Assembly (NCBI GenBank): GCA_023384005.1
Contig: JAHDXY010000012.1
Span: forward strand, 1 to 39,176
Length of the DNA: 39,176 nucleotides
From: Burkholderiaceae bacterium
GTDB taxonomy: Bacteria; Pseudomonadota; Gammaproteobacteria; Burkholderiales; Burkholderiaceae_E
Reading direction: 5' to 3'
A program made the position numbers and the translations under genes. The stretch's first letter is position 1; each line of letters begins with the position of its first letter. This document shows, piece by piece, positions 2,216 to 34,263 of this stretch. Under the pieces are notes generated by a model. That model was not told the DNA's origin. It made no database searches and saw only the letters and a program-made list of their open reading frames with translations.

Positions 2216-2247
2216 TTATTGTTCTCTAAGCTGGTTCATGCCCGGCC

Positions 2248-2281
2248 ATCCTACTGAGCCGGGTGTCTCACCAGATGAGCC
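2248..2281 (-). promoter_or_regulatory. Operator/promoter A before TIR-APAZ
   Basis: Minus strand reads GGCTCA-TCTGG-TGAGACA (2264-2281), a CTCA/TGAG dyad with 5-nt spacer. Ten bases further downstream comes TAGGAT (2248-2253), a -10-like hexamer, which puts a start of transcription near 2241, about 26 nt before the ATG. No -35 hexamer is recognisable where expected; the dyad occupies that space. The same arrangement recurs before RmuC, ARPP-1 and DUF2779. Function is inferred. Confidence 0.6.
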
Positions 2282-2302
2282 TGCCGAATTCGCAGCAGGC
2301 TC
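2277..2302. repeat. 8-bp perfect inverted repeat after the GIY-YIG gene
   Basis: GAGCCTGC (2277-2284) and GCAGGCTC (2295-2302) pair perfectly around a 10-nt loop containing GAATTC. It starts 5 nt after the GIY-YIG stop and shares its left arm with operator A. There is no U-run on either strand, so it is not a classical terminator; it could protect the upstream operon's 3' end or extend the operator. Confidence 0.5.
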
Positions 2303-2307
2303 CGATG

Positions 2308-2820
2308 CTAGTGGGTCCGGAACGTGTTCCAGGTCTCGGTGTTCAGCCTCATGGCAGTGAACACCTCGAACAGGTAGAGCTCTAGATCGTTCTGGATCTC
2401 CACCCACGCGACCGTCATCTTGCGGAGGCGGTCCTGTGCGGACAGGAATGCCGCCTTGAATTGCTCGTCTCTCATCGCTTGTTCACGCTTCATCTCATGC
2501 GGATAGTCTTCTGTTGCCATGCGATATACGAGACTCGCGGAATAGTGCGAATCGTAGTTCAGGTGCTGCACAAGACGCTTAAGCACACTTCGAGAAATGC
2601 CCACGTATTCAGGCTTCTCTCGATGAATAAATACATAGCAGCCTGGAAAATCGCCGCGCCGATCGAGCGCCTGCAATAGCTTCTTCGTGACACTCTTATG
2701 CCCGACCAGGATTTCCGCCTTGGTCGCCGACAGCATTGCCAGTTCTAGTTCCTTGTAATGCTTTGGAAGCACGCTTTCCGCGAGCTGCTTGAACGAGTAA
2801 TGACAGTTATCGATCGCCAT
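2308..2820 (-). CDS. GIY-YIG nuclease-like protein
   Basis: 170 aa. Seen: residues 60-90 read GCYVF...EYVGIS followed by R77 and KRLVQH, i.e. the paired G-x-Y and Y-V-G strands of the GIY-YIG fold plus the usual basic helix. An acidic candidate for the metal-binding glutamate lies in LELYLFEVF near residue 150, followed by NTETWNTFRTH, a typical asparagine-rich end. Known: GIY-YIG domains cut DNA using one metal ion. The first 50 residues are not recognised. Context: last gene of the eight-gene run, 15 bp after the HNH gene, so it probably supplies a nuclease activity to that system or was recruited to it. The substrate cannot be told from sequence. The ribosome binding site is weak, suggesting coupling to the gene upstream. 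Confidence 0.72.
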   Translation of the reverse strand: MAIDNCHYSFKQLAESVLPKHYKELELAMLSATKAEILVGHKSVTKKLLQALDRRGDFPGCYVFIHREKPEYVGISRSVLKRLVQHLNYDSHYSASLVYRMATEDYPHEMKREQAMRDEQFKAAFLSAQDRLRKMTVAWVEIQNDLELYLFEVFTAMRLNTETWNTFRTH

Positions 2821-2835
2821 GGCGGGCGGCTCGCA

Positions 2836-3612
2836 TCAGTTTTTGAACACATACTCGCGGTGATAAGCCAGATACCCTTGGTGACTCGATTCGATTCTGC
2901 GCAGACGCAGATCCGGTCGAAGCCCCATCAATTCCGCAGCAGTGGACTTCAGCTTCGGGGATAGCCTCACGCGGCCATCCTCATCGAAGGTAATCCAGCC
3001 GGCGTCGAATGCGGCGTCAAGGCTGGGAGCCAGCAGGAAGCCGTTGTACACGTCTAGGCGCTCCTCGTCCGTGTCGCATTTCGCCCAAGGTTTCGAATGG
3101 GAAGCGCGAAGGAGGGAAACGACGTCGAGTCCGATGACGGCGCACGCACCTTCCCAATACTCGATCAGAGCTTCGCGGAAAACGTCCTGGCCCACGCGCG
3201 CGACAAATACCCGCTCGGCTTCCGTTGCCTTAGGCAACGAACCCGTCTTCGCGAGAAATCGTTGCAACGGTTGCTCGCGACGGTTTCGGGCGGCCCCTGC
3301 AACGATAGCGAGCAGTGCGCCGAGGGCCGCGTCCGAATCCGCTGCCCAGACTTCCCGCATTTCTGTGCCGAAATCGACCGCTGGCTCGGACATAACCTTT
3401 TCTATCCCGGACACCGACGCAGGGCTATGCGGACGAGATCGTTCAGCCAAGGCAACGTCCGTATCCCCGCTCGCTGAGGACGGCTTGAGGAGCACTTCCT
3501 CACCGAAGTGACTTGATCCTACGACCAGCCAAGCGCCATGCCGCTGGGCCTGCCGGTCAAATCCGGCATCGCGAGCGATCTTCTCGAGCAACGCTTGGCG
3601 TATCAGGTCCAT
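2836..3612 (-). CDS. HNH endonuclease (HNH_2-like)
   Basis: 258 aa. Seen: the C-terminal half carries EYWEGACAVIGL, LLRASHSKPW, ERLDVYNGFLLAP and DAAFDAGWITF, the ordered motifs of the HNH_2 family with H172, N190 and D199 as the likely H-N-D/H catalytic triad. C157 begins the motif as in relatives, but the usual C-x-V-T-G is C-A-V-I-G here. The N-terminal 140 residues are not recognised and may be a sensor or targeting part. Known: members of this family occur as stand-alone restriction-type nucleases in defence loci. Context: 9 bp after the Hsp70-like gene and 15 bp before the GIY-YIG gene, so the operon ends with two unrelated nuclease folds. Modification dependence is not readable from sequence. 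Confidence 0.8.
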   Translation of the reverse strand: MDLIRQALLEKIARDAGFDRQAQRHGAWLVVGSSHFGEEVLLKPSSASGDTDVALAERSRPHSPASVSGIEKVMSEPAVDFGTEMREVWAADSDAALGALLAIVAGAARNRREQPLQRFLAKTGSLPKATEAERVFVARVGQDVFREALIEYWEGACAVIGLDVVSLLRASHSKPWAKCDTDEERLDVYNGFLLAPSLDAAFDAGWITFDEDGRVRLSPKLKSTAAELMGLRPDLRLRRIESSHQGYLAYHREYVFKN

Positions 3613-3621
3613 GTGCGGTAG

Positions 3622-5085
3622 CTACATCTGGTCCTTGCTGACGAATCGATCACTCTCTCCGCGTACCGGCAGCGGCGCCATGTCCTCTATCGCAGACGGT
3701 GGTATGAATTCGCCAATGTCCTCGAAGCCGAAGCTCAGGCCGTGCGCTATGCCGAGCCGCTGCCAATCGTCGTCGTTCAGACCAGGAGCACGAAAATCCG
3801 ATGGCCGTGGAATCGGTGCCTCCTGAAACCTGCGTACCCGCAGACCGAGCCCGCCGCCTGGGGCTGCACGCCTGCCTGATTCCTGAACGGCCTCCTGGTA
3901 TAGCGGCAGTCGGATCCCGCCTCCGCTCAGAAGTATCTGAATGGGTTCGCTCGGGGCGCCATCGGATACCGAAATCTCACTAGGCGCCTTCTTCTTCGCT
4001 TGCGTAACGACTTTTCCTAGGGCGATGACGCATCTTTCCGTGAAGCGCCTGTCCAGTGCCTCAATGTCGGATTTAGGTGGAACGCATTCCATAGCGGTTG
4101 GAGGTATCGGCTGAAGAGGATTGGAGGCCGCAAACCGTGCAAGCGCCAACCGACCTAGCTCGTCCGCCCGGAACCGGTGCAGACGAAGAGCGCCAAGGTC
4201 CGTCGCAACATCGGCGGACAGAAAGGCATAGCGCGCGCCTTCCGCCGAGTCGTTCAACAGGAACATGCTCGTGTCGAGTGTCGTAGCTCCCACATCGACG
4301 AACAGATGAGCACCGGCACGACGCTGAGGCGAGCGCGCGTACGTCGTCACACCCGCAGCCACTTCGGGCACAACCTTGATCATTTCCGCCCCGATTCCTT
4401 TGGGGATCAGCTTGCCCTCCCGTGCGAGATCCACCGTGCTAGAAGCCCTGGCCAGATCGATCGCACCCGGAGTCGCCGCGAGCTCCCATGCAGCCATTGC
4501 GGCGGCGAGGAATGCCTCCCTTATCGACGCAGCGTCGAAATCGCGTGCGGGAATGCCGACATTCATTCTCCATGCAATCTCGCCGCCGCCGAGACTCGGA
4601 CGGACTGATCGCTCAGTCCACGCGAGCGCGTTGCGAAGGATGAATGCGAGGTACCCGGTTGCGAAGTCGGCAGGACGCGCGGATATCGCCGCGCCGGCAG
4701 AAATCGGGGCACTCTGCCAGGGAGATTCCATGAGTCGCACTTTCAGGTCTTCAACCCATCCGCCACCGTTATGAGTGGCCAGCGTAAAGGTCCCGTCGAC
4801 TGCGACTGCCAGCCGCGTGGGTGACAAGTAAGGGTGCTCTGCGCTCGCGATGCCTTCGAAAGGCACCCCCCATGCAGGACCGGTTGGCAGGAGTCTCACG
4901 ACTGCCTTTGTCGACGATGTTCCGAAATCCAAGCCAAGGCAGAGGTATCGGAGCGGCGGTGTGGCCACACTCGATCGTGTATCCGCTGCCGAGGTTGCGT
5001 CCGTTCGCCTAGTCTCTGCCGCCGGTTGCGTTTGCCCGGTCAGGCTTCGCTTGATCTCTTTGAGCTTCTCCCTCCAGTCCGCCAT
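3622..5085 (-). CDS. Hsp70/actin-superfamily ATPase
   Basis: 487 aa. Seen: all three nucleotide signatures of the actin/Hsp70 fold: phosphate 1 LGLDFGTSSTKAVV (about 50-63), phosphate 2 HLFVDVGATTLDTS (about 260-273) and adenosine loop ILLSGGGIRLP (about 384-394). There is no Hsp70 substrate-binding domain; a proline- and charge-rich 45-residue leader precedes the fold. Known: such stand-alone Hsp70-like ATPases act as nucleotide switches and are found beside helicases in defence clusters. Context: 15 bp after the RapA-like helicase stop, with a strong ribosome binding site (GGAGGGGGCG before ATG), and 9 bp before the HNH gene. A role in assembling or gating the helicase-nuclease complex is inference. 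This is not DnaK. Confidence 0.78.
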   Translation of the reverse strand: MADWREKLKEIKRSLTGQTQPAAETRRTDATSAADTRSSVATPPLRYLCLGLDFGTSSTKAVVRLLPTGPAWGVPFEGIASAEHPYLSPTRLAVAVDGTFTLATHNGGGWVEDLKVRLMESPWQSAPISAGAAISARPADFATGYLAFILRNALAWTERSVRPSLGGGEIAWRMNVGIPARDFDAASIREAFLAAAMAAWELAATPGAIDLARASSTVDLAREGKLIPKGIGAEMIKVVPEVAAGVTTYARSPQRRAGAHLFVDVGATTLDTSMFLLNDSAEGARYAFLSADVATDLGALRLHRFRADELGRLALARFAASNPLQPIPPTAMECVPPKSDIEALDRRFTERCVIALGKVVTQAKKKAPSEISVSDGAPSEPIQILLSGGGIRLPLYQEAVQESGRRAAPGGGLGLRVRRFQEAPIPRPSDFRAPGLNDDDWQRLGIAHGLSFGFEDIGEFIPPSAIEDMAPLPVRGESDRFVSKDQM

Positions 5086-5100
5086 CGCCCCCTCCGCTGC

Positions 5101-8100
5101 TCAGTGTACTTCTATGATCCCCACACAGATCAGATCCTGCCTCGCCTTCACGTTCCGCCCGCTCTCGATACGTGCCCGCCGAATGTCCACCCGCTCCCGA
5201 AGCTTTGCGATGCGCCCTTCCGTCGCTCGTGCGAGTGACCGGCGCCCCGCGCCCAGCAAGCGCCCGCGTATGTCTTCGAGCTTCTTCAACTGATTCTCAA
5301 GGTGCCTTTCGAGTGCGGCGATCTGGACGTTGACGCGGTCGGTGTTCTCATCAGTGGCGCGTTTGACGAATCCGCTGTAGCGATCATTCCCGGCTGCATA
5401 GAGCCCGACCGCCGCCTCGGCAGCGGCTTCGAGCTTTACCCCGATGCCACTCTTGGCCTCCAGCCATTCCTGCCCATTCGTAATGGCAGCTACGACCAAC
5501 CGTTCCGCGTGATCGTCCGCGAGTACAAGCCCTCCATTCAGCGACACTGCAGCGTAATGCAAATGCTCGCGGGCTTGCAGAGCTTCGACCGACCAGTGCA
5601 GCACGATGAACCCATACTGCCCTTTCCCCACACCTTCTATTGCGGCTGCCGACATCCGAACGCCGACAACCGGCCAGAAAGGACGCTCTCCCCGCTCGGT
5701 TCTGGCGCGAAGCTCCACGCTGACGAAACGAACCAGCGGATGCAGCTGCCCCAAAAGCTCGACTCGCCGGGCACCTGGAGTAGCAACCTTGTTTTCGAAA
5801 CGGCAGCGTTGCGGGCCGCTGGCCGGACGATGCAGTGCCGTGAAACGCTGGAGACGATTACGCTCGACGAAAACACCGAGCTCCGCCTTTGCCCCAGGCG
5901 ACAACTCCACGTCGTAAGTCCTGGTGTTCGTATCCACCAGACTGAAACGGGAGCCTGCATACCTTTCCTGAAGGTAGTCGACGACGTATGCCTCGATGTC
6001 CTGGCCCGTGATTAGTCGTTTGAGTTCACGGGCCGCCTTCACCTCGTTCAGGATGTAATCGCCGTACGCGACCAAATTCGCGGCATTTGCTTCGAGCTGC
6101 TCCTCCTGATGCTTCACTGTCTCGAGTACCTGAGCAGCCCGCTCGATCTCCTCCTCTTCCTGCGCGGGCGTCAGCCGCCCGGCGAGGAGACCCAACGTGA
6201 GCTTCTGGATCTCCTTGCCCAGAATTTCTTCGAGCCCACCCAAAGCGCGCTCGAAAATTTTGAGCCGATCGTACAGACGCAAGTAAATGCGGTCGTCGAT
6301 CGTGCCCCTGTAAAAGAGGTTCCAGATCGAGATCTTTTTCGCCTCCTGGCCGAGACGGTCCAGGCGCCCGATGCGCTGTTCAACCCGCATCGGATTCCAC
6401 GGGAGGTCGTAGTTCACCATCACCCGGCAGAACTGCAAGTCGATGCCTTCGCTGCCCACTTCGGAGGACAGCAACACCCGCGGCCCCGCTGGATCCTTGA
6501 ATCGGTCCAGAACCGCCGCTTTGTCCAGTCCGACGCTCCCCGAAAGAACGATCGCGTCCACGCCCAGCGCCGTCAAACGCTCCGCCAGGTAATCCAGGGT
6601 TGCCCGGAAATACGAGAAGACCACCATCTTCTCCGACTCATGTTCGGTGAGAAAGCGCTTTATGATCGAGCTGAATCTCGCGAACTTGCTGTCATTCTGC
6701 TCAAGCTCATCCAGATCGGCGATCCGGCCCACGCGCCGCACGATTTCGGAAACCAGCGGTCCCGGCCGTTCGTCCTCCTCAGGTTCATAGCCGAGATCCT
6801 CGAACAATTCCTCGTCGTCGAAGCGCGGCGAGTCGGCCATGGCCTTCCAATGCCGAAGTGCCGCCGGCATCGAGCTCGAAATCTGCCGTTGCGGCATGCA
6901 GACTAAAAAGGCTTCTACGCCATCGACCTTAGCTGCGTACTCCCGGACAATCTCAGTAACCTTCCAGTAGAAGCTTTCTTCCGCCGGGGTCATTGGCACG
7001 GCTTCCGGAAATGCCTCGCGCTGGACGACCCATTCGGCTACCTCGCGCTTTCTTGTCCGCGAAACGACATGGCCGAGAAGGTTCAGCGTCTCCAGCCTGT
7101 GCGCTGCATCGGCTCTCGCGCGTCTGTCCAGTAGCAAGTCCTGCGCTTCGAGTTCCTCAATGAGAGCGCGCAACTGCCGGCTGTCATTCAGCAGGTAATG
7201 GGCGCTCGCTTCTTTCAAGAGATCCAGTAGCGCCGCCTTGTTGGGAGAAGGCGCCAGCACCAGATCCCGCGCCTGAACCAGCGGCGCGTTGGCCTCGAGC
7301 ACCTCATCAAAAACGCTCGGATCGTTGAACGTATCCTCGTCCAAGAGGTTGAGCTGGTAGTAAAGGTCATCGCTTCGCAGATGGACTGGTGTGGCGGACA
7401 ACAACAGAACGTGCTCCGACACCGCCTTAACCAGCCGCCCGAGCGCCGCGTTCATGCTTTCCGGATTGCGTAGGTAATGGGCTTCATCAATGATGAGCAG
7501 GTCTAGTAGCGGCTCCGCCTCCGCCTGCGAGCGCAGGAACGTGGCCAAGCGTGTGCCGGCGTGCGTGGCTTCTTCCTCGGACTCGGCCCATCCCCGCCTC
7601 GGCCGCAAGCCTTGCAGACTACCTATGAGCGCAAATCCACGCGCCCGCCCCTCGGTCGCTCCAGCCTGCAATACCTCCAACGTCCGTCTTGCATCCGCAG
7701 CTTCGGCCTCGACCCCAAATCGGTCGTATAGCTCCGCCTTCCACTTCCCTTGCAACACGGCCGGGCACAGCACCAGGAGCCGCTGCGCGTCGTACCGGCT
7801 CCTCAACTCCGTCCAGATCAACCCTGCTTCAATCGTCTTGCCAAGCCCGACCTCGTCCGCGATCAGCAAACCGTTCGCCGGCGAGTTCAGAAACTTCAGT
7901 ACCGGCTTGAACTGATGCGCGTAGAACTCTGTGTTCGTGGTTTCCATGCTGTAGACGACATTCGCCAGGCGCCCGCTCAAGCGCACATGAGTCAGCAGCC
8001 GCCGCAAGGCCGCAGCGCCGGCAAGCTCACCCTTGGAAAGGAGCTCTATTGGATCGGAAGAAGAATCCGCCTCGGGTTCAAGTTGATCCTCCGGAACCCA

Positions 8101-8220: not shown

Positions 8221-8241
8221 GGCGAACTCGATCAGTAGCCA

Positions 8242-15028: not shown

Positions 15029-15031
15029 GGG

Positions 15032-23100: not shown

Positions 23101-23157
23101 TTTTTCCCTGCAAAGCCGGTCTGATGACCAGTCGGCCAACGCCTTTTTGTCCCCCGC

Positions 23158-23163
23158 AGTGTA
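23158..23163 (-). promoter_or_regulatory. Possible -10 box for the eight-gene operon
   Basis: Minus strand AAAATACACT contains TACACT, a -10-like hexamer about 58 nt before the proposed ATG at 23100. No convincing -35 partner. Weak call; transcription might instead continue from RmuC, whose stop is 153 bp upstream. Confidence 0.25.
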
Positions 23164-23212
23164 TTTTGCCTTGCAGCCGACAACTAGGCGAGGGCCAATG
23201 GTTTTCGGCGCG

Positions 23213-23225
23213 CTTACCCGCTAAG
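23213..23225. repeat. CTTA-N5-TAAG dyad before the giant helicase
   Basis: GCTTA-CCCGC-TAAGC is a perfect 5+5 dyad in the 153-bp gap between RmuC and the giant helicase. It has the same 5-nt spacer as the CTCA-N5-TGAG sites but different half-sites, and no -10 at the shared distance. It may be a degenerate member of that set or unrelated. The rest of this gap shows nothing else. Confidence 0.3.
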
Positions 23226-23253
23226 CGGGCACCGCGTATTCGGTGTACGACCC

Positions 23254-24783
23254 CTAGCCGGGCTGGACCTCAAGCTCAGGCACCTGGAGCGCTCGCGGCA
23301 ACACCTCGACCTGATCGATCTCGCCGATTTCGCGCCCGTCCGGCACCGCCTTCAGTTCTTTGAAGCGCCTCGCCGAGACCAACACCCGACTTTCGAGCGA
23401 AGCGACCGCCTTGTTGTAGGCGCCCACCGCGTCGCCGAGGTTTTTGCCGACCTTGCTCCAGTGGCCGGCCATGACGGAGATCCGCTCGTGCAGGTCGCGG
23501 CCGAGGTCGCTGATCTCCTGCGCGTTGCGGGCGAGCGCTTCCTGTTTCCAGCCGTAGGCGATGGCGCGCAGCATCGCGATGAGTGTCGTCGGCGTTGCCG
23601 GGATGACCTTTTCGCCGACTCCAAACTCGATCAGCTCCGGGTCCTGCTCCAGCGCGGCGGAGAAGAACATCTCGCCGGGGAGGAAGAGGACTACGAGCTC
23701 AGGCGTCGGGTCGAACTGCTCCTGGTAGGACTTGCGGCCGAGCTTCGTCATGTGGTCGCGCACCTGGCGCGCGTGATCGACGAGCTTTTGCGTGCGCAGC
23801 TCGTCTTTCTCGGTCTCCATCGCTTCGAGGTAAGCGGTGAGCGGCGTCTTCGCGTCCACTACGATGTTGCGCCCGCCCGGAAGGCGCACGACCATGTCCG
23901 GCCGCAGGAGTCCGTCCTCGCTCAAGACGCTCACCTGCTCGATGAAGTCGCAGTGCTCGAGCATCCCGGCCATCTCGACGACCCGGCGCAGTTGCAGCTC
24001 GCCCCAGCGCCCGCGCGCGACCGGCTGGCGCAGGGCACGCACGAGGTTCGAAGTTTCTTTGCGCAGGTCGCCCTGCCCCTCGGCAAGGGAGCGCACCTGC
24101 GTCGTCAGCGCCTGGTAGGCGCCTTCGCGCATCTTTTCGATCTCGTGGATTTGCCCGTCGAGCTTCTCCAGCGACTGCTTCACCGGCCCGACCAGCTCCT
24201 GGATGGCCTGCTGGCGCTTTTCGAGGTCGCCCTGCGCGCCTTGCTGGAACTTGCCGAGGGTTTCCGCCGCGAGGTCCAGAAACGACTGGTTGTTCGCCTG
24301 CAGCGCCTGTGCCGACAACGCGCGAAACGCGCTCGCGAGCTGCTCCTGCGCCTGGTTGAGAACGCCGAGCTTCTCGGCCAGCATCGCCCGCTCCGCCTCC
24401 AGCTCGGCCTTTAGACGGGCGTTCTCGACCTTCAGCTCCGCATTGGCGTCGTCCTTGGCCTCGGCGGCGCGCGCGGCGTCGCTGAGCGCGGCCTCGAGCT
24501 GCGGTACGCGCAGAGCCAGTTGCTCGGCTGCTGCCCGTTTCTGCGTCTCGGCGCGAAGCGCCGCCTCCACCGGTTCGCGCGCCGCTTCAAGTTCCGAGAC
24601 TCTCTTCTCCAACCTCGCAACTTCGGCGTCGCGCCCAGAAAGCCGTTCGATCAGCGCTGCCCGCTCCGATTCCATCCCAGCCCGGCCGCGCTCGAACGCG
24701 CTATTCGCCTGCTGGCGCAGGAGAAACCACGCCCCAACACTACCGAGCAGCAGTCCTGCGGCGATTGCGAGAAGGCTTTCCAC
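23254..24783 (-). CDS. rmuC: DNA recombination protein RmuC
   Basis: 509 aa. Seen: an N-terminal membrane anchor ([19 protein letters not shown]), a long alanine/glutamate-rich coiled coil (about 30-190), then the RmuC core with [37 protein letters not shown] and [12 protein letters not shown]. The VDAKTP element is the PD-(D/E)XK-like nuclease core. Known: RmuC limits inversions at short inverted repeats in E. coli and is membrane-anchored. Here it sits inside a defence island rather than beside its usual chromosomal neighbours and carries its own copy of the shared operator motif, so it is probably part of the island's response. GTG start at 24783 with GAGG eight bases upstream. Confidence 0.9.
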
Positions 24784-24827
24784 GGGGCACCTCGTCGAGT
24801 AAGGCCGCTGGACCGGCCGGTCGACCC

Positions 24828-24860
24828 ACTATAAGGGCCGGGTGTCTCAGAGGATGAGCC
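24828..24860 (-). promoter_or_regulatory. Operator/promoter B before rmuC
   Basis: Minus strand GGCTCA-TCCTC-TGAGACA (24843-24860), identical to site A in both half-sites and in the following ACACCCGGC. Nine bases downstream is TATAGT (24828-24833), the best -10 of the set, giving a predicted start near 24821 and a leader of about 38 nt. No -35 hexamer visible. Confidence 0.65.
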
Positions 24861-24875
24861 TGCGGCCCTCCAGCC

Positions 24876-25154
24876 TCAGTCGCGGGGGATGCGGCGGTAG
24901 CGATGGCCGACGGTAATCACGGCCCCGTCCGACCCGAGGATCGCGTAGGTCCGGCGAAGCCGCTCCGCCTCCCGTGCTGCAGCCGGGCTCTGCCTCGCCA
25001 GCCGCGCCCGGGCGGCCCTGTCCAAGAAGACAATCTCGCGGCCACGATCGACGTGAGCCGTCCTGCCGAAGTCGAGCAGCGCCTCGAGCGCCTCTGCCCG
25101 GATGCCCCGCTGCTGCATCCGGCTGCGCGCGTGCGGCGTGAGGTTGGCGGACAT
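24876..25154 (-). CDS. DUF4258-like small protein
   Basis: 92 aa from ATG 25154 (GCGAGG precedes it); the track start at 25178 is a TTG without a ribosome binding site and would overlap the ARPP-1 stop. Seen: LTPHARSRMQQRGI at the N-terminus and TVGHRYRRIPRD at the end, the pattern of DUF4258-like proteins (H-x-x-x-R-M-x-x-R). Known: this family is distantly related to RelE/BrnT-like folds, but its function is not established. Context: begins 10 bp after the ARPP-1 stop, so the two are co-transcribed; no antitoxin-like partner is seen. It is therefore not called a toxin. Confidence 0.6.
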   Translation of the reverse strand: MSANLTPHARSRMQQRGIRAEALEALLDFGRTAHVDRGREIVFLDRAARARLARQSPAAAREAERLRRTYAILGSDGAVITVGHRYRRIPRD

Positions 25155-25164
25155 CACGGCCTCG

Positions 25165-26094
25165 CTACGCCATCGCAAAACCCGCTAGATGAACGATGCG
25201 GCCGTTGGCGACGAGCGCGCCGCCCGACACCTCGTCTCCCGTCAACCGGATGTCCTCGCCTTCGCCGAGCGCCGGGAAGCGTTCGGCCGCTGCGGCCTGC
25301 ATCGCTTCGAGAAAGCGGTGCACTTCCGCGGCCGACGGTGCGAGCGTCTTTCCAGCCTCCGTCTCGATCGCGTCAAGGGCGTAGCTGCGCACGAGCTTGT
25401 CGAGATAGCGGGCGAATGCAGCCGCAGAATCGAAGAGTTCCATTCCGATCGGCTTGCCATCGACAGCAATGACCGCGCCGCGCTGGCCAGGCTCGGAGCG
25501 GAAGGCAGTGGCATATCCGCTCAGCCGCGGCGCGCTTTCCTCATATACGTCCGCCATGGCGAGCGTGCCGGACTCCACGCGGCAGAACGCCGCCTTGTCG
25601 GCGACGTCCGCCCATACCTGCGACTGATTGGACCGCCGGTCCCGGTTGACGCGCAGGGACTCCGTGACCTGTCGCACCTTCTTCGCGCGCGCCTTCGCGA
25701 ACAGGGATCTTCGCGCCGACCGGAACTCGCGGCTGTGATACGACCAGCGCCCCTGCTCGACGCAGGAAACAGGAATGACCAGCTTCTGCCGGCTGCCCAC
25801 CAGGACGCTGAGATTGAGCACCCGGTTTTGCTTCGCGCCGACCAGCTCGTCGCCATCGACCAGAAGGATTCTCTCCGCCGAGTCGTTCTCGAAGGACAGC
25901 TCCGGCACCCGTCCGTCGGCAGACACTTCGGTCACACGGGCGAGATTCCGCTCCAGGGCATCGTCGAGGAGCAGGTAGTCGGACAGCACCTTCCGTTCGT
26001 CGATAAGCGGGAAAAGCGCGAGGTTGAGGTGAACCTGCGGCGAACCGAGCTTGAGCCCGGTGAATGATTGCTCGATTTCCTGCGCGGTTTGCAT
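25165..26094 (-). CDS. ARPP-1 domain protein
   Basis: 309 aa. Seen: an N-terminal ARPP-1-like pattern, LNLALFPLID near residue 25, then ERILLVDGDELVGAKQNRVLN and IPVSCVEQGRWSY, and a second half with SGYATAFRSEPGQRGAVIAVDG. The family is named for its association with ADP-ribosylglycohydrolase and rhodanese-phosphatase-like proteins; its biochemical activity is unknown. Start ATG at 26094 has a clear ribosome binding site (GAAGG, 6 nt). Context: preceded by operator D and a GATACT box, followed by the DUF4258-like gene. An involvement in ADP-ribose or NAD signalling, and so a link with the NAD-consuming SPARTA module in the same island, is speculation from the family name and the shared operator. 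Confidence 0.75.
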   Translation of the reverse strand: MQTAQEIEQSFTGLKLGSPQVHLNLALFPLIDERKVLSDYLLLDDALERNLARVTEVSADGRVPELSFENDSAERILLVDGDELVGAKQNRVLNLSVLVGSRQKLVIPVSCVEQGRWSYHSREFRSARRSLFAKARAKKVRQVTESLRVNRDRRSNQSQVWADVADKAAFCRVESGTLAMADVYEESAPRLSGYATAFRSEPGQRGAVIAVDGKPIGMELFDSAAAFARYLDKLVRSYALDAIETEAGKTLAPSAAEVHRFLEAMQAAAAERFPALGEGEDIRLTGDEVSGGALVANGRIVHLAGFAMA

Positions 26095-26125
26095 GAACGC
26101 CTTCTTTCAAAAGAGAGAGGCGCCC

Positions 26126-26159
26126 AGTATCGGAGCGCTGGTGGCTCAAGGCGTGAGCC
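26126..26159 (-). promoter_or_regulatory. Operator/promoter D before the ARPP-1 gene
   Basis: Minus strand GGCTCA-CGCCT-TGAGCCA (26142-26159); here the dyad extends to six bases each side (GGCTCA/TGAGCC). Ten bases on is GATACT (26126-26131), a good -10. Predicted start near 26119, 25 nt before the ATG. No -35. Confidence 0.6.
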
Positions 26160-26223
26160 CCCGAAGGAAATCTCGCGCTATGAAACGCCTAATCCGGCCG
26201 CGCTCACCGCATGAACCGTGCTG

Positions 26224-29200
26224 TCACTTCACAGTCGGTGGCTCTAAATTCACATAAAACTCGCGGGACAGCTTCGCCAGCTCGGCGGGCGCCACGGTTC
26301 GCTTGAGATGTTCGAGCAGATCCTCCTGCCGCGGCTGGCCGAAGACCATCCGGTAGACGGCAAGGGACCCGCGCAGCGCAGGCAGCCTCGCCGCCTCCCG
26401 GCTGAGCGGCAACGCAGGCGCATGACGCTCGATGTACGCGCCATCCTCGATCGGGAAGACCCAGTAGGGGACGATTTCGGAGCTGTGCCCGGCATGCTTT
26501 TCCGCATACTCGAACAGTCCGCCCCACGGGTTGACGCCCGGTTTCGCCGCATGTCCGTTCTTGCGGACCAGGCTTGCGACATTTTTCCTGACAGCATGCC
26601 CCTTGTAGCGGTGAACCCTGCCTTCGCGCTGCTCCAGATCGACAGGATTGCTCGGCAGGTTCCAGTGGACAACCGCATGGCAGTAGGGATGGAAGTCGAG
26701 CCCTTCCTGCCCTATGGACGTGGTGACGCAAACGAACGGCCAGAATGGCGAGTTGAAGGCGGCACGCACGCCTTCTTTGCGGAGCAGCGTTTCTTCGCGC
26801 TCCCCGCCGCGCTCATCTCCGTAGCGCATCGCAAATCGCGCTCGCGCCCGCTGATTGTCGATAGTTACGCGTCCATCGCTGGAAGCCCTGACCCAATCGA
26901 CGCCAGGTGTCGCGGCTCGCAGCCCAGCAGAAGAGGCGATCTTGTCCGCGAGCTGCCGCGCGGCTTCTATGGGCGGCGCGTCGGTCAGACCTTCTGACTC
27001 GACCAGAACGTGAACATACTCGTCGAGCACACTCTGCAAGCAGCCGGCCGCGCAATACTCAAGCGCTCGCCTCCAGTACGGTTCCGCGCCGTTCATTCCC
27101 CGAATCAGGGCAATTACCTCGGGAGTGTTGAACAGGCTCCGAAACCCCCATGCAGTCCTGCCAGCCGAATGCCTTAGAGCGGGATCAGTGTGCGCCGCTC
27201 CCAACGTATGCCCCAGCGCGCGAAGGGCGCAATTCGCCGGTCCTGCGATTGCGATGAGCGCTAGAAGCTCGGGCAAATCCTCGGGCACGCGACCCTCCGG
27301 TTTCGCCTTCCCGAGCGCAAATTCGGCCGCGTAGCCGACGTGTTCCAGCCAGCCTTTTCTCTCTTCCGGATCTGAGGACCACGCATCGGCCAGCGACGCA
27401 GGATTTGCAAACCATCCCTCCGTCGCTTCCCGATCGTTATGGCGATCGAGCATGATCGGCGCGGCCCAATACCACGCCTCGTCTTCTGGCCCGGTACGTC
27501 GTGCGCCGGCCGTCAGGGGCGATAGCAGCTTCCGAATTCCGCCGGCAACCTTCTTGATGACTGCTTCGAGGGTCTCAGTCGCCACTGTCGGTACGGCTCC
27601 GAGCGGATCGCCCAGGCCAGCGAGCCTCGTACTCGGATACAGCAGTGAAAGGACCGGCATGCCCGTAAGACGGCCTTCCGACCGCGTGAACATGAGGAGC
27701 GGTCGCCGCCGTTCCCGAGCTTCGAGCGTATTGGTGGCCGCGGCATCAAGGCTTTTCATCATGCGCCGCTCCACTTCGTAACTGAGCAGCACGGAGACAG
27801 CGCGCGGAACCACGTTCCAACTCGAAAAGATGAGCCGCTTCGTCATTACCTTTGCGGCCACGCCGCTGAAAGGCTGGCCGAGCCGGTAGTACGGGAATGA
27901 AGGCGGCATCCACAGCAGCCGCCACCATCCTTCTCCAATTGTCTGTTCGGCCAGCCGCTCCAGCGCTGCATGGCGCGGGTCAATCTCCTCGTAAGCGCGC
28001 CAGGCCGAGGCGTCGAGCAGCGCGCTCCGGGACGCAGCGATGGCGCGCGAAACAGCTTCGCCACCGCCGTTCTGCGCGACATCCCGAAGCAGGCCCTTAA
28101 GCTGGTAGTTGTCCGGCTCCATGAAGTTCAAGAGATATGGGCTGGCCTTCCAGTACTCGGTCACGTCGGTATGGCCAAGCGCGTCCGCCAGCCGGCGTGT
28201 AGCGAGGTAGCTCTCGATATGCTTGGGAAGCACTTGAACCGCGGGCGTCGCGACCTCGCGAAGCATCCCGCTTCGATCGGCCGTGACCGCCAGCTTCTCC
28301 GTCCGGCACATCACTCGTCGCAGCTCGGCTTCGAGCTTCTGCTTTATCTCGCGAACCGGTTCTACGCCGTCCTGACCTACCCGTGCGCAAGCCCTGCCAT
28401 ATGCAGCCAGAAGCTCCTTGCTCGCTTCGGTCTCCTTCTCATCGACTTGCAAGAATCGCAACGTCTCCACGAAATCCTTGTAGTGGTCGTCGGACTCCGC
28501 TTCCTGACCAAGTGTGTACATCTTGTACGGCGTCGCCGAGAGAAGCAGGACCCGCGCGTCCTCCCAGGCGAACAGGTGCCGCGCCAGGTCACCTGCCGGA
28601 TTGTCCGGACGAAGAAGATCTTTGAAGCGCTGGAACTCGTCCAGGATGATGAGATCGGGTTCGAGAGCGCGTACGCACACGGCGGCAAGCAGCGACCGCA
28701 TGTCGCCAATGAAGGCGTTGCGGGCCTCCCTGTCCTCGGCGGGAATGTGCTTTTTGCTCCACGCGAACCTGGCGCACAGATCACGGAAATTGCTCTCGTG
28801 AGTTGGTTTGCCGGCCTCCCGTGCACGCGCGCCCTCCTGGCGGAGCTGCTCGCTGAACGCCTTCGCCAGATCGCGGTCGATCGGCGCGTCTCGCTCGCAC
28901 TGCCGAAGCCAGTCGCGGAACTTATCCTTATCCGTAACGCCGCCCTGCATCAGGTTCTTGGCCCCCGTACCCTGCGCAATCGACGGCCACGTCCACCGCA
29001 GCAGCCAGTACAAAAGGAGCCGCTCGTCCACCAGCCCGCCACGGTTCCCCAGATGGAACGACGTTTGCGGCGTGAATGAGACGAAGTTGAGACGATTCGC
29101 CGAGAGCTCCTGGACCTGCTGGGGCAACAAAGTAATGCGAGAGGCGAACTGAAAGTCTGGTTTGCCCGTTACATTAAGGCGGCTGATGTTCTGCCGGGCG

Positions 29201-29451
29201 ATGTCGGCGTTCGAGCAGATGTATATCACGTCGATGCGCTTCTTCCCGGCTTTGCGCAGCCGTTCTATCGCCCTGGCGATAACGCCGCGTGCTACGAGCG
29301 TCTTGCCCAGTCCGACTTCGTCGGCCAGCAGGAATCGGCGCGTCGCGCCTTTGCCGTACAGGCGCTCGTAGACGTATGCCACCGACTTGCGTTGAAATCC
29401 TTTGAGCGCACCGAGAACGCGCTCGGCGTCAACGGCATCAGGCTGCGACAC
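26224..29451 (-). CDS. SF2 (SNF2-like) helicase of the DUF6361-PLD cassette
   Basis: 1075 aa. Seen: Walker A LLADEVGLGKT (41-51), a Walker B read as DEFQ (271-274) rather than DEAH, motif III LLLSATPYKMYTL, and late in the protein TTSIGQEGLDFHPYC and LEQREGRVHRYKG, motifs V and VI. Between motif III and V lies an insertion of some 550 residues, much larger than in typical SNF2 helicases. Known: helicases of this shape accompany PLD-like proteins in defence clusters. GTG start at 29451 overlaps the PLD gene stop by 14 nt, with GCAGGGCGGAC just upstream. It is the fourth SF2 helicase of the island and the only one with DEFQ. Substrate unknown. Confidence 0.85.
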   Translation of the reverse strand: MSQPDAVDAERVLGALKGFQRKSVAYVYERLYGKGATRRFLLADEVGLGKTLVARGVIARAIERLRKAGKKRIDVIYICSNADIARQNISRLNVTGKPDFQFASRITLLPQQVQELSANRLNFVSFTPQTSFHLGNRGGLVDERLLLYWLLRWTWPSIAQGTGAKNLMQGGVTDKDKFRDWLRQCERDAPIDRDLAKAFSEQLRQEGARAREAGKPTHESNFRDLCARFAWSKKHIPAEDREARNAFIGDMRSLLAAVCVRALEPDLIILDEFQRFKDLLRPDNPAGDLARHLFAWEDARVLLLSATPYKMYTLGQEAESDDHYKDFVETLRFLQVDEKETEASKELLAAYGRACARVGQDGVEPVREIKQKLEAELRRVMCRTEKLAVTADRSGMLREVATPAVQVLPKHIESYLATRRLADALGHTDVTEYWKASPYLLNFMEPDNYQLKGLLRDVAQNGGGEAVSRAIAASRSALLDASAWRAYEEIDPRHAALERLAEQTIGEGWWRLLWMPPSFPYYRLGQPFSGVAAKVMTKRLIFSSWNVVPRAVSVLLSYEVERRMMKSLDAAATNTLEARERRRPLLMFTRSEGRLTGMPVLSLLYPSTRLAGLGDPLGAVPTVATETLEAVIKKVAGGIRKLLSPLTAGARRTGPEDEAWYWAAPIMLDRHNDREATEGWFANPASLADAWSSDPEERKGWLEHVGYAAEFALGKAKPEGRVPEDLPELLALIAIAGPANCALRALGHTLGAAHTDPALRHSAGRTAWGFRSLFNTPEVIALIRGMNGAEPYWRRALEYCAAGCLQSVLDEYVHVLVESEGLTDAPPIEAARQLADKIASSAGLRAATPGVDWVRASSDGRVTIDNQRARARFAMRYGDERGGEREETLLRKEGVRAAFNSPFWPFVCVTTSIGQEGLDFHPYCHAVVHWNLPSNPVDLEQREGRVHRYKGHAVRKNVASLVRKNGHAAKPGVNPWGGLFEYAEKHAGHSSEIVPYWVFPIEDGAYIERHAPALPLSREAARLPALRGSLAVYRMVFGQPRQEDLLEHLKRTVAPAELAKLSREFYVNLEPPTVK

Positions 29452-31438
29452 GTCCGCCCTGCTTCCGAAGGTTTGCGTCCGCGCCCCGCGCGGCGCGGAT
29501 GGCGCTCCAGAGCATTACAAGCTCTTCTGGAAGAAGTTGCCTGCCCTCCTCCGTCTTTTCGAGGTCTTGCACCAGCCGCTCGATGTGATCGAGGCGCGAA
29601 GGATCTTCGGCCAGCGTCCGAAGCAGCGGTTCGAGGAGCGGTATGCCGAACGAGCCGAGCGAATTCCAGTCGCCCCAGCTTCCTCCTTTTCCCTGTCCGT
29701 CGCCTCGCAGGTCAAGATCAGCGCCCTCCAGCAGCATCAACAGATAGCGCAGAAGCCGTTCGCGATTCGAGAGCATCGCGAGCAGCAGCCGCGCGTCGCG
29801 ATCCGCCGGTGCGCCATCCAACGGCAGCTTGAGCACGAACTCCTGCGTCAATTTTCGGCTTTTCTCGCTGGCAGTAACGGTGACCGCAAAGAAAGCCGTC
29901 AGAGATTCGAACGCGAGCGATTTGAAAGAGGCGAGTTGCCCGCTTATGCGCGTGAATCGCACCCCGTTGTCAGGTGCAAATGACACCGGGCGGATCGCGC
30001 ACTCGACGCCTGCCGGAAGTGGCGCAGCCGCAGCTTCGGCCGATTCGACGCGCACTCTGAACGTCCGTCCTTCGGCATCGGCTTGGCAGTAAGCGATCAG
30101 GCGTGCGTCAACGAGCTGACGGCGGACTTGATCGATTGTCCGTTCCAGCCTCTTCTCGACCTCGTCGGGCTTGCGCTCGATTTCCGCACGCCTGTATGGA
30201 ACGAGCATGTCGATCAGGCGGACCCGCTTGTCCTGCTGGCCCTTCTGAGCATCCTGGCGGAGCAGCGAATCGATCCCAATGTCGGCTCGCTTGCCACGCA
30301 GTTCCACCAGGAATTCGACATTCGCGGAGAACGCCGCTTCCGTGGCGTTGGCTGAGCCGGTCCAGAGTCGCGCGTCCCAGCCACAATCCGCTACGTAGAA
30401 CTTTGCGTGCAGACCACGCAAGGATACCGCGGACGGCTCCACCGTGATCTCACCGTCGGAGTTCTCCGCTGGACCTGAAGCAGTTTGCGACTGAGCTGCC
30501 TCGTCTTCGCGCAAGTCCGACTCCGCCGCATCTGAGAGTACGTAGCATGACTCGATATCCTCGAACGCAGCCGCCGCCAAGAAGTCCAGCTCCTCCGGCC
30601 GCGAAACGAGCGCACATACGTTGCTCTGTTCCTTCACCCAGTCCAGAAACGTCTTGTCTGCGAAGGGTGACATGACGAGCAGTCGATCCGTGCGCCCCTC
30701 GAACGGCCACACGTCTTTCGCATCCACACCGATCGGCCAGAACACGAGGTCGTCGGCGTAGTTGCTGAAGCCCGGTGGAACCTGGAACTGGACTCGCAGC
30801 AGTTCTTCCGAAATCTGCACGATGTCTTTCGCTCGACGCGCGTCTACTGGCCGGCATGCAAGGTCGGGCAGAGCCCGAACGAATGCAGCCAAGGGCCGAT
30901 TGCTGCGGATGACTTGCGGTCGATCGCGTATCAGCTCGCCATCGAGGGCGAGCATGGTGTCCCAGGAGCGGTCGAACGTGAGGTTTCTCGTCCCGCACAA
31001 GAGGCGATACTTCACCGCATTGGGGTCCGGCCGCTCGTGATCCTCCGCCGCCCGCGGATCGCGCAGGTCCGCAGAGTACCGGACGACCGCAACCTTCGGA
31101 TGGAATACGCCTCCATTCCTGCGCGCCTTGGCCTCGATTACCGATTCCTCCAGGTATCCGAAAAGTAATTGCCCTCTTCGTGGCGCCGCGATGCAGCCTC
31201 CTTGGCAGAAGACGCTGATGCGGCCTGCGTGTCTGCGAAGGGCTTCGAGCAGGGCAACAGGGTCCACCCGCCCTGCCTCGTTGATTCCGTCGCCGGACGC
31301 CAACGTGAACGACAGCGGCAGCGTCAACAACGCGACCAGATCGAGGGTGTACGTCGTCGCAATGACTTGATCGAGCCGAAAGCCGGCGGGGGCGCGCAGC
31401 GCCTCGGTAAAAACGGTGCGATCGGCGGCATCGAGCAT
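29438..31438 (-). CDS. Phospholipase-D-like (PLD) family protein, probable nuclease
   Basis: 666 aa. Seen: two PLD half-sites. The first is VFHPKVAVVRY (H113, K115) followed by LCGTRNLTFDRSWD (about 147-160); the second is LHAKFYVADC (H344, K346) followed by WTGSANATEAAF (about 359-370). Both H-x-K motifs and the downstream N residues are intact, so a complete two-site active centre is possible. Known: bacterial PLD-fold proteins in defence loci, for example DrmC in DISARM, act as nucleases or accessory factors. Context: ATG starts one base after the DUF6361 stop (TGA-A-ATG) and its end overlaps the helicase. It is larger than DrmC and lies in another operon than the methylase, so it is not called DrmC. 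Confidence 0.82.
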   Translation of the reverse strand: MLDAADRTVFTEALRAPAGFRLDQVIATTYTLDLVALLTLPLSFTLASGDGINEAGRVDPVALLEALRRHAGRISVFCQGGCIAAPRRGQLLFGYLEESVIEAKARRNGGVFHPKVAVVRYSADLRDPRAAEDHERPDPNAVKYRLLCGTRNLTFDRSWDTMLALDGELIRDRPQVIRSNRPLAAFVRALPDLACRPVDARRAKDIVQISEELLRVQFQVPPGFSNYADDLVFWPIGVDAKDVWPFEGRTDRLLVMSPFADKTFLDWVKEQSNVCALVSRPEELDFLAAAAFEDIESCYVLSDAAESDLREDEAAQSQTASGPAENSDGEITVEPSAVSLRGLHAKFYVADCGWDARLWTGSANATEAAFSANVEFLVELRGKRADIGIDSLLRQDAQKGQQDKRVRLIDMLVPYRRAEIERKPDEVEKRLERTIDQVRRQLVDARLIAYCQADAEGRTFRVRVESAEAAAAPLPAGVECAIRPVSFAPDNGVRFTRISGQLASFKSLAFESLTAFFAVTVTASEKSRKLTQEFVLKLPLDGAPADRDARLLLAMLSNRERLLRYLLMLLEGADLDLRGDGQGKGGSWGDWNSLGSFGIPLLEPLLRTLAEDPSRLDHIERLVQDLEKTEEGRQLLPEELVMLWSAIRAARGADANLRKQGGRVAA

Positions 31439-31439
31439 T

Positions 31440-32645
31440 TCAGGTCGCCTTCGCAGGTTTGCGGATCAGGTCCTCGAGGATCTGTCGCACGGGTCTGCCC
31501 CATCGGTAGTCAAGTTGCCCCGCCCCGGATCGCCCGTTCCACAGGTCGAGCGCCCTCGGATTTCCGAGCCGCGCCCGCCCCCGCTTCAGGAATGACTCAC
31601 GCAATCGGATCAGTTCGTGCAGGCTGCGGTCGGAAAGGATGCTTTCAATCCGGCGCGCTGTGCCGATCGCGCCCTGCCATGTTTCAACGAAGGAATAACT
31701 TGGCGGCGGTACCCTTGCCCGCCATGCGGCGAGCAACGCCCAGAAGCGCGGGCGGTTCCATTTCGCGAATCCGTCCGCCCGTTGCTTCAGCGCCTCCCAC
31801 CATTCGGCGAGCCACTCTTCATATTCCTCGACCAGGTCCTCCAAATCCTTTTCTTGCGCGAGCATCAGGTTATAGAGCAGCGAGGCCCCGTGCATGGACT
31901 CGGAGAAGTTGCGCGCGTGCTCGAGCTCCTCGCTGAGCGCTTTGGGCAATTCCGCGGGTGGCACGTGTTCCCACGGAAAATCCGTGCCATTCGGCCGCCT
32001 CCCTACATGAATCAGGTGAGCAAGCAGCGAATCCGGAGCGGCGAAGTTCATCCGATCGGACAGGTATCTCGCTTCCTCGCTAGTGATCGCGAAGTCGGTG
32101 GCATCCAGCCATCCCTCAGGCGGTTGTGGGAGCTCGGCGTCCCACAGCACCCGGCTCGCGTTTCCGACCGGCTCCCCGTCATCGTTTCGCTGCGCTTCCG
32201 ACGTGGTTCGCAGCTCCCTCGCGTAATCGGCCTCCGAGCCGTCGAACCGCAAAACCCCCAAGCGCCGCAAGCCCTGCCAGTACACGCTGCTCGGCAGGCG
32301 CTGGACGTTTCCGCCAGCCCTGTAGCCAATTACGCCGAGCGCTTCGCCGCCTTTCATGAGGCTTTTACGGAGCTGGTCCTGCATCTGCCGCATCCGCTGT
32401 CCGAAGCGTTCTGGATCGCGATCCGCCGGCTTCAACATGCGGAACAGCCAGGGAACGAAAAGGAAATAGCGTACCCGGGTTTGAATCGTGCTCGTGCCCG
32501 GGAACAGCCGGTCGGCGAACGCATCACGGATCACGCCAAGACCAAGCTCGTCTCGCGTATCGTCTTCGCGGAATAGGTCGACGGCGTCGAGCGCCCGCTT
32601 GCGGTCGCGGTCCGAATAGTCGAGCCAAGCGAAAGTAGACGCCAC
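31440..32645 (-). CDS. DUF6361 family protein
   Basis: 401 aa from the GTG at 32645. Seen: FAWLDYSDRDRKRALDAV at the N-terminus and LGLGVIRDAFADRLFPG followed by TIQTRVRYFLFVPWLF, strongly characteristic of DUF6361. Family members begin close to the F-x-W-L-D-Y element, so the track's GTG at 32717, which adds 24 unrelated residues, is probably too early; GGGG lies about nine bases before the 32645 GTG. No known catalytic motif. Function unknown; it is found with PLD-like and helicase genes. Context: first gene of a three-gene cassette. The 57-128 bp upstream to the DUF2779 stop show no copy of the shared operator motif; a CTTACTACTGAG element with GATAAAGT nearby is at most a loose relative. 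Confidence 0.78.
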   Translation of the reverse strand: MASTFAWLDYSDRDRKRALDAVDLFREDDTRDELGLGVIRDAFADRLFPGTSTIQTRVRYFLFVPWLFRMLKPADRDPERFGQRMRQMQDQLRKSLMKGGEALGVIGYRAGGNVQRLPSSVYWQGLRRLGVLRFDGSEADYARELRTTSEAQRNDDGEPVGNASRVLWDAELPQPPEGWLDATDFAITSEEARYLSDRMNFAAPDSLLAHLIHVGRRPNGTDFPWEHVPPAELPKALSEELEHARNFSESMHGASLLYNLMLAQEKDLEDLVEEYEEWLAEWWEALKQRADGFAKWNRPRFWALLAAWRARVPPPSYSFVETWQGAIGTARRIESILSDRSLHELIRLRESFLKRGRARLGNPRALDLWNGRSGAGQLDYRWGRPVRQILEDLIRKPAKAT

Positions 32646-32773
32646 AGTTGTGTACCCCGGTGGCAGCGGAAACTTCCCCGCGCTAGTCAATGCTGGACCA
32701 TGCGCGGCCCCCTGCACACCGAACTTTATCCCCTCAGTAGTAAGACCACCAATTGCTGTTCATTCTCTGGGCG

Positions 32774-34219
32774 TCAGCACTGCTCCATCAGGAACCGCGC
32801 AAGTCGCACCATTGCGAGCGTATCGCGCGCGCAATACGCCGTGAGATCACGCTCGATGCTTTGCCGGCGCTCCGGGAGCGTATTCGGGTGAATTGCTTCA
32901 AGGTAAGCAACCTGTGCCTGCCCTCCCTCCTGGACTTCCCCGAGGGCAGCGTAGTCCAGCTCGGGCGCAATCGTCGGGATGACGGACTTGATCGACCACG
33001 AACCCATCATCTGCGGGTGGTAGTAGCTGCGTTCCGCCAACGGTCGCAAGTCAACAATGCGGTTCATGATCCTGCCGATGCTCTCCGCAAGATCGGGAAA
33101 ACGCACCACGGACTGCGCAAGAATCGTCCGCTCGAAGCTGCTGTAGGAGAATACTGGCCCGCTCGTTCCGAGACAGCCGATCAGCGATTCCGCGAAAGTG
33201 CGCATCGGCGGCCGGCCGGAAAGGTCCAGGAAGCCGCGTTGCTCGAGCGACCCATCCGACTTCTCCAGGTGGCAGGACCATTGGAAGGGAAGCTGTTCGT
33301 AGGGGCGCGTGCCCGCCCAAATCGGCACCGCCATCTGAGCGGTCTCGAAATCCACGTAGTACCGCGGGTAAGGAAGCGCTGCGACCTCAGCCCCCGCGCC
33401 CCTGACGATGTCCGCCTGCCCGCTGATGGTCGCCCGCCACACTCGCAGGTGATTGGCGGACTTCAGCATTCCCTCCGGCACCTCGCGCAGGTCCCGATGC
33501 CCCGCCTCGCGCAAGGCCACGACCGTCTTCCCGCCTCGCGGCAGAATCTCCACCGGAAACGCCGGTCTGCCAGCCGAGCAATGCCCCTGAAACGGGCACT
33601 CGAACGGATCGGTGCAATGGGCGCCCATTTCGACGGCTGGCATGGCACCGTCGAGCACGCGCGAGAACTGCTCCACCCAGCCCGGCACCTTGCCCACATC
33701 TGGTCCGACGGCCACGGACACATCCGTGTCGCGCAGCAGCCCTCCGTACTGCCCTTCGCCCTGGTACACGAACGCGTTGTCGATGTGCGTGACGAAGGAT
33801 CGAGACAACCGCACGCCCGCGCCGCGCAGCGTCCACACTTGGACCGCCACGTCGGGCTGGTGGTAGTCCTTCACCGAGGTCGACGATTTCACTTCCCGCA
33901 GCTCTGCGTCGCCCGCGCGCCGCGACAAGATGTCCGCGCGAATCAGAACGCCTCCATGAGCGACAGCGGCTTCGAACAACACCTTGTCGCCCGGCATGGC
34001 AAGTTCCCGCTCGGTCGCCGCGAGCGCCGCGTTCAGATCGTCGTCGGCCATGAGCTTCCCGCCGGGCTGCAGCGTGCGGGCAACGTCTCCAACCTCATGC
34101 CCGACCTGGAAGCGATGCTCCGTCGCGGCATCGACTTCGGCGAGATCCGGCCGGTGCACCTGGAGGTACAACCGCTTCGGGCATTGCAACCCGTTCAGAA
34201 TGCGGGACTTGGAGAGCAT
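32774..34219 (-). CDS. DUF2779 protein: Cas4-like nuclease plus DEDD exonuclease-like domain
   Basis: 481 aa. Seen: N-terminal LNGLQCPKRLYLQ with C13, a PD-(D/E)XK core with D96 in RADIL and E109-V-K111, and a later cysteine cluster C202, C208, C214 in HCTDPFECPFQGHC. Four cysteines in this order suggest the Cas4/AddB-type iron-sulphur cluster. The C-terminal half starts YYVDFETAQ (D290, E292) and ends YCARDTLAMV, the first and last acidic motifs of a DnaQ/RNase H-like DEDD exonuclease. Known: this fused family is widespread in mobile elements, its role unclear. Context: follows the WYL gene by 44 bp, and that gap holds operator C. The predicted transcript would start at or next to the ATG, and no ribosome binding site is visible, so a leaderless message is possible. 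Confidence 0.8.
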   Translation of the reverse strand: MLSKSRILNGLQCPKRLYLQVHRPDLAEVDAATEHRFQVGHEVGDVARTLQPGGKLMADDDLNAALAATERELAMPGDKVLFEAAVAHGGVLIRADILSRRAGDAELREVKSSTSVKDYHQPDVAVQVWTLRGAGVRLSRSFVTHIDNAFVYQGEGQYGGLLRDTDVSVAVGPDVGKVPGWVEQFSRVLDGAMPAVEMGAHCTDPFECPFQGHCSAGRPAFPVEILPRGGKTVVALREAGHRDLREVPEGMLKSANHLRVWRATISGQADIVRGAGAEVAALPYPRYYVDFETAQMAVPIWAGTRPYEQLPFQWSCHLEKSDGSLEQRGFLDLSGRPPMRTFAESLIGCLGTSGPVFSYSSFERTILAQSVVRFPDLAESIGRIMNRIVDLRPLAERSYYHPQMMGSWSIKSVIPTIAPELDYAALGEVQEGGQAQVAYLEAIHPNTLPERRQSIERDLTAYCARDTLAMVRLARFLMEQC

Positions 34220-34225
34220 CGATCT

Positions 34226-34259
34226 ATTTTGCGGGGCTCACTGACTCACAGCGTGAGCC
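34226..34259 (-). promoter_or_regulatory. Operator/promoter C before the DUF2779 gene
   Basis: Minus strand GGCTCA-CGCTG-TGAGTCA (34242-34259). A second GTGAG follows directly (TCAGTGAGCC), so the site may be doubled. Ten bases downstream is CAAAAT (34226-34231), a poor -10, placing the start near 34219, the first base of the ATG. Confidence 0.5.
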
Positions 34260-34263
34260 TGCG

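Follow-up and report, generated by a model that had tools for sequence, protein, structure and literature searches.

In a 39,176-nt stretch of a Burkholderiaceae bacterium genome (contig JAHDXY010000012.1 of assembly GCA_023384005.1; hereafter the window), four minus-strand units of a defence island share one operator, to which, judging from sequence comparison, a WYL regulator encoded in the same island very probably binds. The exact 18-mer GGCTCA-N5-TGAG-N-CA is present four times and at no other position in the window, always on the minus strand and in intergenic DNA, upstream of the minus-strand genes for TIR-APAZ, RmuC, ARPP-1 and a DUF2779 protein. Most likely, the four sites mark WYL-activated promoters that join the defence genes of the island to a wider regulon of DNA-end processing. 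The sites and their -10-like hexamers are given below, where the core is the 15-bp GCTCA-N5-TGAGC, from which the -10 offsets of 11-12 nt are measured, and the matrix was trained on 47 sites from other genomes only.

2264..2281, minus strand: operator 1, GGCTCATCTGGTGAGACA, before TIR-APAZ (SPARTA); exact match; matrix score 20.3, rank 2
2248..2253, minus strand: -10-like hexamer TAGGAT of operator 1, 12 nt after the core and 10 nt after the 18-mer; 4/6 identical to TATAAT
24843..24860, minus strand: operator 2, GGCTCATCCTCTGAGACA, before rmuC; exact match; matrix score 16.9, rank 4
24828..24833, minus strand: -10-like hexamer TATAGT of operator 2, 11 nt after the core and 9 nt after the 18-mer; 5/6 identical to TATAAT
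26142..26159, minus strand: operator 3, GGCTCACGCCTTGAGCCA, before ARPP-1; exact match; among the matrix top four
26126..26131, minus strand: -10-like hexamer GATACT of operator 3, 12 nt after the core and 10 nt after the 18-mer; 4/6 identical to TATAAT
34242..34259, minus strand: operator 4, GGCTCACGCTGTGAGTCA, between wyl and DUF2779; exact match; among the matrix top four
34226..34231, minus strand: -10-like hexamer CAAAAT of operator 4, 12 nt after the core and 10 nt after the 18-mer; 4/6 identical to TATAAT

These positions bear out a sequence-only reading of the same DNA, which had placed the motif ahead of the four units with a -10-like hexamer 9-10 bp further on (found at 10, 9, 10 and 10 nt) and had considered four such sites unlikely by chance. 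The top four matrix matches in the window are the four sites, all intergenic, and the score of the weakest (16.9) is reached 0.03 times per shuffled window. Because a matrix trained elsewhere ranks them first and so few are expected in shuffled sequence, we regard the four-site observation as real. The fifth-best match, at 3731, lies inside coding DNA and scores 16.0, so that the window holds no coding site equal to the four. That the copies represent one promoter cassette recently duplicated in the island, with no regulatory meaning, or mere chance would agree with their location in one island and on one strand. The N5 spacers and flanks differ among the four copies, however, and this explanation, scarcely credible given the shuffled-window expectation, is already refuted by the conservation of motif and spacing in other genomes.

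The operator had been thought specific to the island; this was ruled out by sites elsewhere in the genome and in relatives, and the signal is instead family-wide. The full 4.8-Mb host genome contains one exact 18-mer beyond the four in the window. It is found at G000:C17:6114-6131 (L001 1501-1518), between open reading frames (ORFs) resembling an IS1595 transposase and a TRAP transporter, names that were read off the translations. The 10-base core has 15 copies in the host genome versus 2 for a reversed control pattern. Two further WYL paralogues are encoded there, one preceded by a core site at 28 bp and the other followed by one at 14 bp. A single scan with the WYL protein provided 80 loci from Beta- and Gammaproteobacteria (50-74% identity, 1.2 Mb). 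In these loci GCTCA-N5-TGAGC occurs 59 times, as compared with 0-4 copies for any other spacer length from 0 to 12, and core-like sites are intergenic in 59 of 68 cases despite 88% coding DNA. The motif is thus conserved in homologous loci, and its full symmetric form is CTRGCTCA-N5-TGAGCYAG.

Genome-wide counts were made in 61 genomes (the host and 60 relatives), in which presence of this WYL family was defined by E < 1e-50. As the bare 10-base core was noisy in whole genomes (212 versus 99 sites, with 80 versus 50 for its control), it was dropped in favour of the extended palindrome WRGCTCA-N5-TGAGCYW. This form has 54 copies in the 31 genomes with the WYL family versus 3 in the 30 genomes without it (p = 3e-7, a value weakened by kinship, as the two samples are related and not independent), and its reversed control has about 0 copies in the 61 genomes. 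The operator adjoins the wyl gene in many relatives; a homologous wyl gene is present in a Rhodocyclus strain. We tie the motif to the WYL protein because of this co-occurrence and because of the sites next to the two host paralogues, in line with the sequence-only reading, which had named the protein as the likely binder. It is very improbable that another regulator, merely co-occurring with the WYL gene, would bind the dyad: in numerous relatives a site adjoins wyl, which it precedes in 19 loci; related genomes lacking this WYL family are almost devoid of the motif; and the recognition-helix region S-x-A-x-x-K/R-R-D is conserved together with the motif.

The arrangement of the promoters is likewise conserved. 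Among 72 oriented sites, 41 are followed at offset 11 or 12 from the core by a hexamer with at least 4/6 identity to TATAAT, and TAnnnT begins at these offsets in 26 of the 72, versus a mean of 0.44 per other offset. Matches to a -35 element stay at random level over the same sites, in agreement with the earlier remark that no -35 is visible. Relative to the predicted start, the core occupies roughly -38 to -24 and the dyad centre lies at about -31/-32; the operator thus takes the position of a poor -35 and keeps a fixed distance to the -10. The promoters of the activator DriD are built alike: the binding site has its centre on a poor -35, and its distance to the -10 is constant (PMC12340889). 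This is not the arrangement of CapW, a repressor whose site overlaps the -10 (PMC9122588), or of BrxR, since the operator neither overlaps the -10 nor lies just downstream of it. The wyl genes differ from the other targets: a -10-like hexamer at 11-12 nt accompanies 38 of 55 sites at non-wyl targets versus 3 of 17 at wyl's own gene, where 8 sites come as close as 9-30 nt to the start codon. The geometry therefore favours activation at the targets, while the nearness of wyl's own sites to the start codon, often without a fixed -10, suggests autorepression there. Of the two modes originally envisaged, activator-dependent or repressor-blocked, the former is thus favoured over the latter.

Repression at all of these promoters nevertheless has to be weighed. 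The same operator and WYL protein could form a block, with the dimer keeping RNA polymerase from the -35 until it is released upon infection, as for BrxR and CapW. A dyad over the -35 would fit such a role, as would the geometry at wyl's own gene, and the defence-island WYL regulators tested in the cited literature repress (PMC9122601, PMC9122588). Against it, the -35 elements are no better than chance, which would leave a repressor little basal activity to shut off. The location differs as well: the sites here are centred at -31, whereas those of CapW cover part of the -10 and R-BOX1 of BrxR follows directly after the promoter. The nearest structures, moreover, are those of PafBC and DriD. 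We therefore consider general repression unlikely and return to activation as the preferred explanation.

The WYL regulator is a protein of 322 amino acids with HTH_11, WYL and WCX domains above the Pfam cut-offs, and it thus qualifies as a WYL transcriptional regulator. A profile built from 31 members ranks PafBC first (4e-24), followed by DriD (3e-12), BrxR (5e-9) and CapW (1e-8 or weaker). Foldseek likewise places PafBC and DriD above BrxR and CapW, with a predicted model of uncertain domain arrangement (predicted template modelling score 0.50) as query. Helices are predicted between the HTH and WYL domains at residues 80-94, 102-116 and 123-129, where the per-residue confidence (pLDDT) is only about 65. 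In the groove, R173, R200 and Y188 are invariant and R196 is nearly invariant among the 31 aligned members, and the PafB residues aligned to these four matter for binding of single-stranded DNA (PMC11804915). According to our literature searches, this WYL subfamily appears not to have been described before. A description of the motif was not found either in the literature searched, which covered few subscription journals.

DriD, a homodimeric WYL activator of Caulobacter crescentus, offers a close parallel. It shares the order of HTH, helical linker (predicted with low confidence here), WYL and WCX, a dyad that covers a poor -35 and keeps its distance to a weak -10 constant, and a set of several promoters, among them those of DNA-repair and replication genes (dnaG and recJ for DriD; PMC12340889). 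Unlike the site described here, the DriD site is ATACGAC-N7-GTCGTAT; DriD also keeps the RLDR arginines that are Ala/Ser in our protein, and the targets here include whole defence units. PafBC, a WYL activator that governs the DNA damage response in actinobacteria, is the best profile and fold match with a similar WYL-WCX part, and it activates promoters by sigma adaptation (PMC11804915). It differs in being a heterodimer and in its arginine pair for single-stranded DNA, which is replaced here. BrxR (BREX) and CapW (CBASS) resemble our case as WYL regulators in defence islands with dyad operators, of which BrxR has more than one per island. They differ in that they repress, from operators located on the -10 or shortly after it, and in that their sequence and fold matches are weaker than those of DriD and PafBC. 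RptR of Escherichia coli (PMC12255303) likewise combines one regulator and a conserved operator in a defence island, but it is not a WYL protein and represses through TAGCTA repeats in the island promoter.

From the sites, their spacing, their conservation and their co-occurrence with the WYL protein, we infer a course of events that comprises binding, activation, a ligand and cross-talk between island and host. GCTCA-N5-TGAGC, in its best form CTRGCTCA-N5-TGAGCYAG, would be the operator of the WYL protein and its paralogues, and a WYL dimer would occupy the dyad in the place of a -35 element. Because the promoters have a recognizable -10 but no -35, RNA polymerase would have to be held by the WYL protein, as with DriD. 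The protein would be switched on when DNA damage or infection is signalled, probably by a nucleic-acid fragment lodged in the WYL groove, and would thereby raise TIR-APAZ/Argonaute (Ago), RmuC with its downstream genes, ARPP-1/DUF4258 and DUF2779/Zac together; at the wyl genes themselves, it would act by autorepression. A copy of the regulator belongs to the island itself; relatives of this protein appear to control host genes for DNA-end-processing enzymes (RecC, SbcCD-like, RmuC and PD-(D/E)XK proteins), and the regulons of island and host therefore probably overlap. Taken as a whole, with the dyad as WYL operator and a WYL dimer activating the weak promoters of island and host regulon, we hold this explanation to be probable.

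Several points weigh against it. The ssDNA-binding (single-stranded DNA) arginine pair of PafBC and DriD is absent, residues 203 and 206 being Ala/Ser in all 31 aligned members (A203 and A206 here). With this essential pair replaced, the ligand may differ from that of DriD and possibly be another nucleic acid. The wyl gene of the window has no operator of its own, a site over the -35 can also repress, and BrxR and CapW, the defence-island precedents, are repressors. Several of the 15 core matches in the host genome sit in coding DNA, probably by chance; to this are added the kinship of the compared genomes and the fact that genes of the relatives were called by a home-made codon-score caller.

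Genes that recur directly downstream of the sites are wyl (19), DUF4258-like (8) and ARPP-1 (6, including two found later), and further SbcD-like (SbcCD-like), RecC-like (4 loci), PD-(D/E)XK, ADP-ribosylglycohydrolase and, in one locus, Cas1 genes. The ARPP-1 operator is conserved before ARPP-1 in L006, L007, L014, L153 and L155. In L006, L007, L010 and L012 an RmuC gene stands behind an ARPP-1 or DUF4258-like gene that is headed by a site (verified with Pfam for L006 and L010), and in L006, L010 and L012 a protein of about 1120 amino acids comes next, the L006 copy having RNase-H-like and helicase domains. A second island, L014, has a WYL gene surrounded by three sites (SbcD-like, PD-(D/E)XK and ARPP-1). 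A search for ARPP-1 that was independent of WYL, in 399 genomes of the order, revealed two further families in which the start codon follows the site by 46 and 59 nt and the -10 lies at offsets 11 and 12, as well as three other ARPP-1 loci without the site. Operators stand upstream of recC-like genes in L060, L080, L127 and L145 (Pfam-checked in L060 only), by which RecBCD would belong to the regulon. In L033, operators at 10996 and 9514 precede a Cas1 gene (by about 90 bp) and an ADP-ribosylglycohydrolase gene and flank the wyl gene.

The same operator, at the same spacing, heads DNA-repair and defence genes in many relatives, which suggests that the island is wired into a broader regulatory network of the host. 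The proposed tie between SPARTA and nuclease genes is seen in this island; two TIR-APAZ homologues elsewhere (31-34% identity) carry no operator site, so that the SPARTA link is known only from here and SPARTA is unsupported as a general target. More tentatively, a nucleic-acid-sensing subfamily of WYL activators with an altered ligand groove might run a stress regulon in Beta- and Gammaproteobacteria that raises the host's RecC, SbcCD-like, RmuC and PD-(D/E)XK enzymes together with defence genes, and mobile islands might bring their own regulator and operators so that SPARTA, Zac and others join the host damage response. An activator-type WYL regulon, with one operator code for several defence units and host nuclease and repair genes, would contrast with the repressors known among defence-island WYL regulators in the cited literature. 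It would offer a direct route to ask when SPARTA and the nuclease defences turn on, and GCTCA-N5-TGAGC with 11-12 nt to the -10 would be a sequence handle for co-regulated, perhaps unknown, defence genes in many genomes.

On the minus strand the island encodes, in order, the WYL regulator, DUF2779, ZacA-B-C, ARPP-1, the DUF4258-like protein, RmuC, DruE-like and DpdE-like helicases, a DrmMI-like methylase, an LmuB-like protein, a DrmD-like helicase, one further protein, HNH, GIY-YIG, TIR-APAZ and a partial ORF. The features concerned are as follows.

34264..35232, minus strand: WYL regulator (HTH_11, predicted helical linker, WYL, WCX), proposed operator binder from Pfam, fold search and motif co-occurrence
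32774..34219, minus strand: DUF2779 nuclease-like protein, target unit, with ZacA-B-C next
26224..32717, minus strand: ZacC-ZacB-ZacA (PADLOC names), downstream of DUF2779
25165..26094, minus strand: ARPP-1 (Pfam), target unit, with the DUF4258-like protein next
24876-25178, minus strand: DUF4258-like protein, after ARPP-1
23254..24783, minus strand: RmuC (Pfam), target unit, with helicase and methylase genes downstream
794..2215, minus strand: TIR-APAZ, target unit
1-840, minus strand: partial ORF overlapping the TIR-APAZ ORF and cut by the contig end; presumed Ago subunit
37491, plus strand: tyrosine integrase

The gene junctions in 22900-35300, including that of RmuC with the downstream helicase and methylase genes, and those in 1-6000 showed no strong terminator; the four promoters could therefore between them drive most of the island, as far as these two scanned regions indicate. 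From the predicted -10 of operator 4 (34231-34226), transcription would begin approximately at the A of the DUF2779 start codon (34219), so that the DUF2779 mRNA may be leaderless. A weaker operator-like match, GCGCTCACCGCATGAACCG, at 26200-26218, shares an intergenic gap with operator 3 and precedes it by 58 bp. A second palindrome, CTCGA-N5-TCGAG, has 26 copies in the WYL loci (L006-L085), where palindromes of the same composition average about 3.

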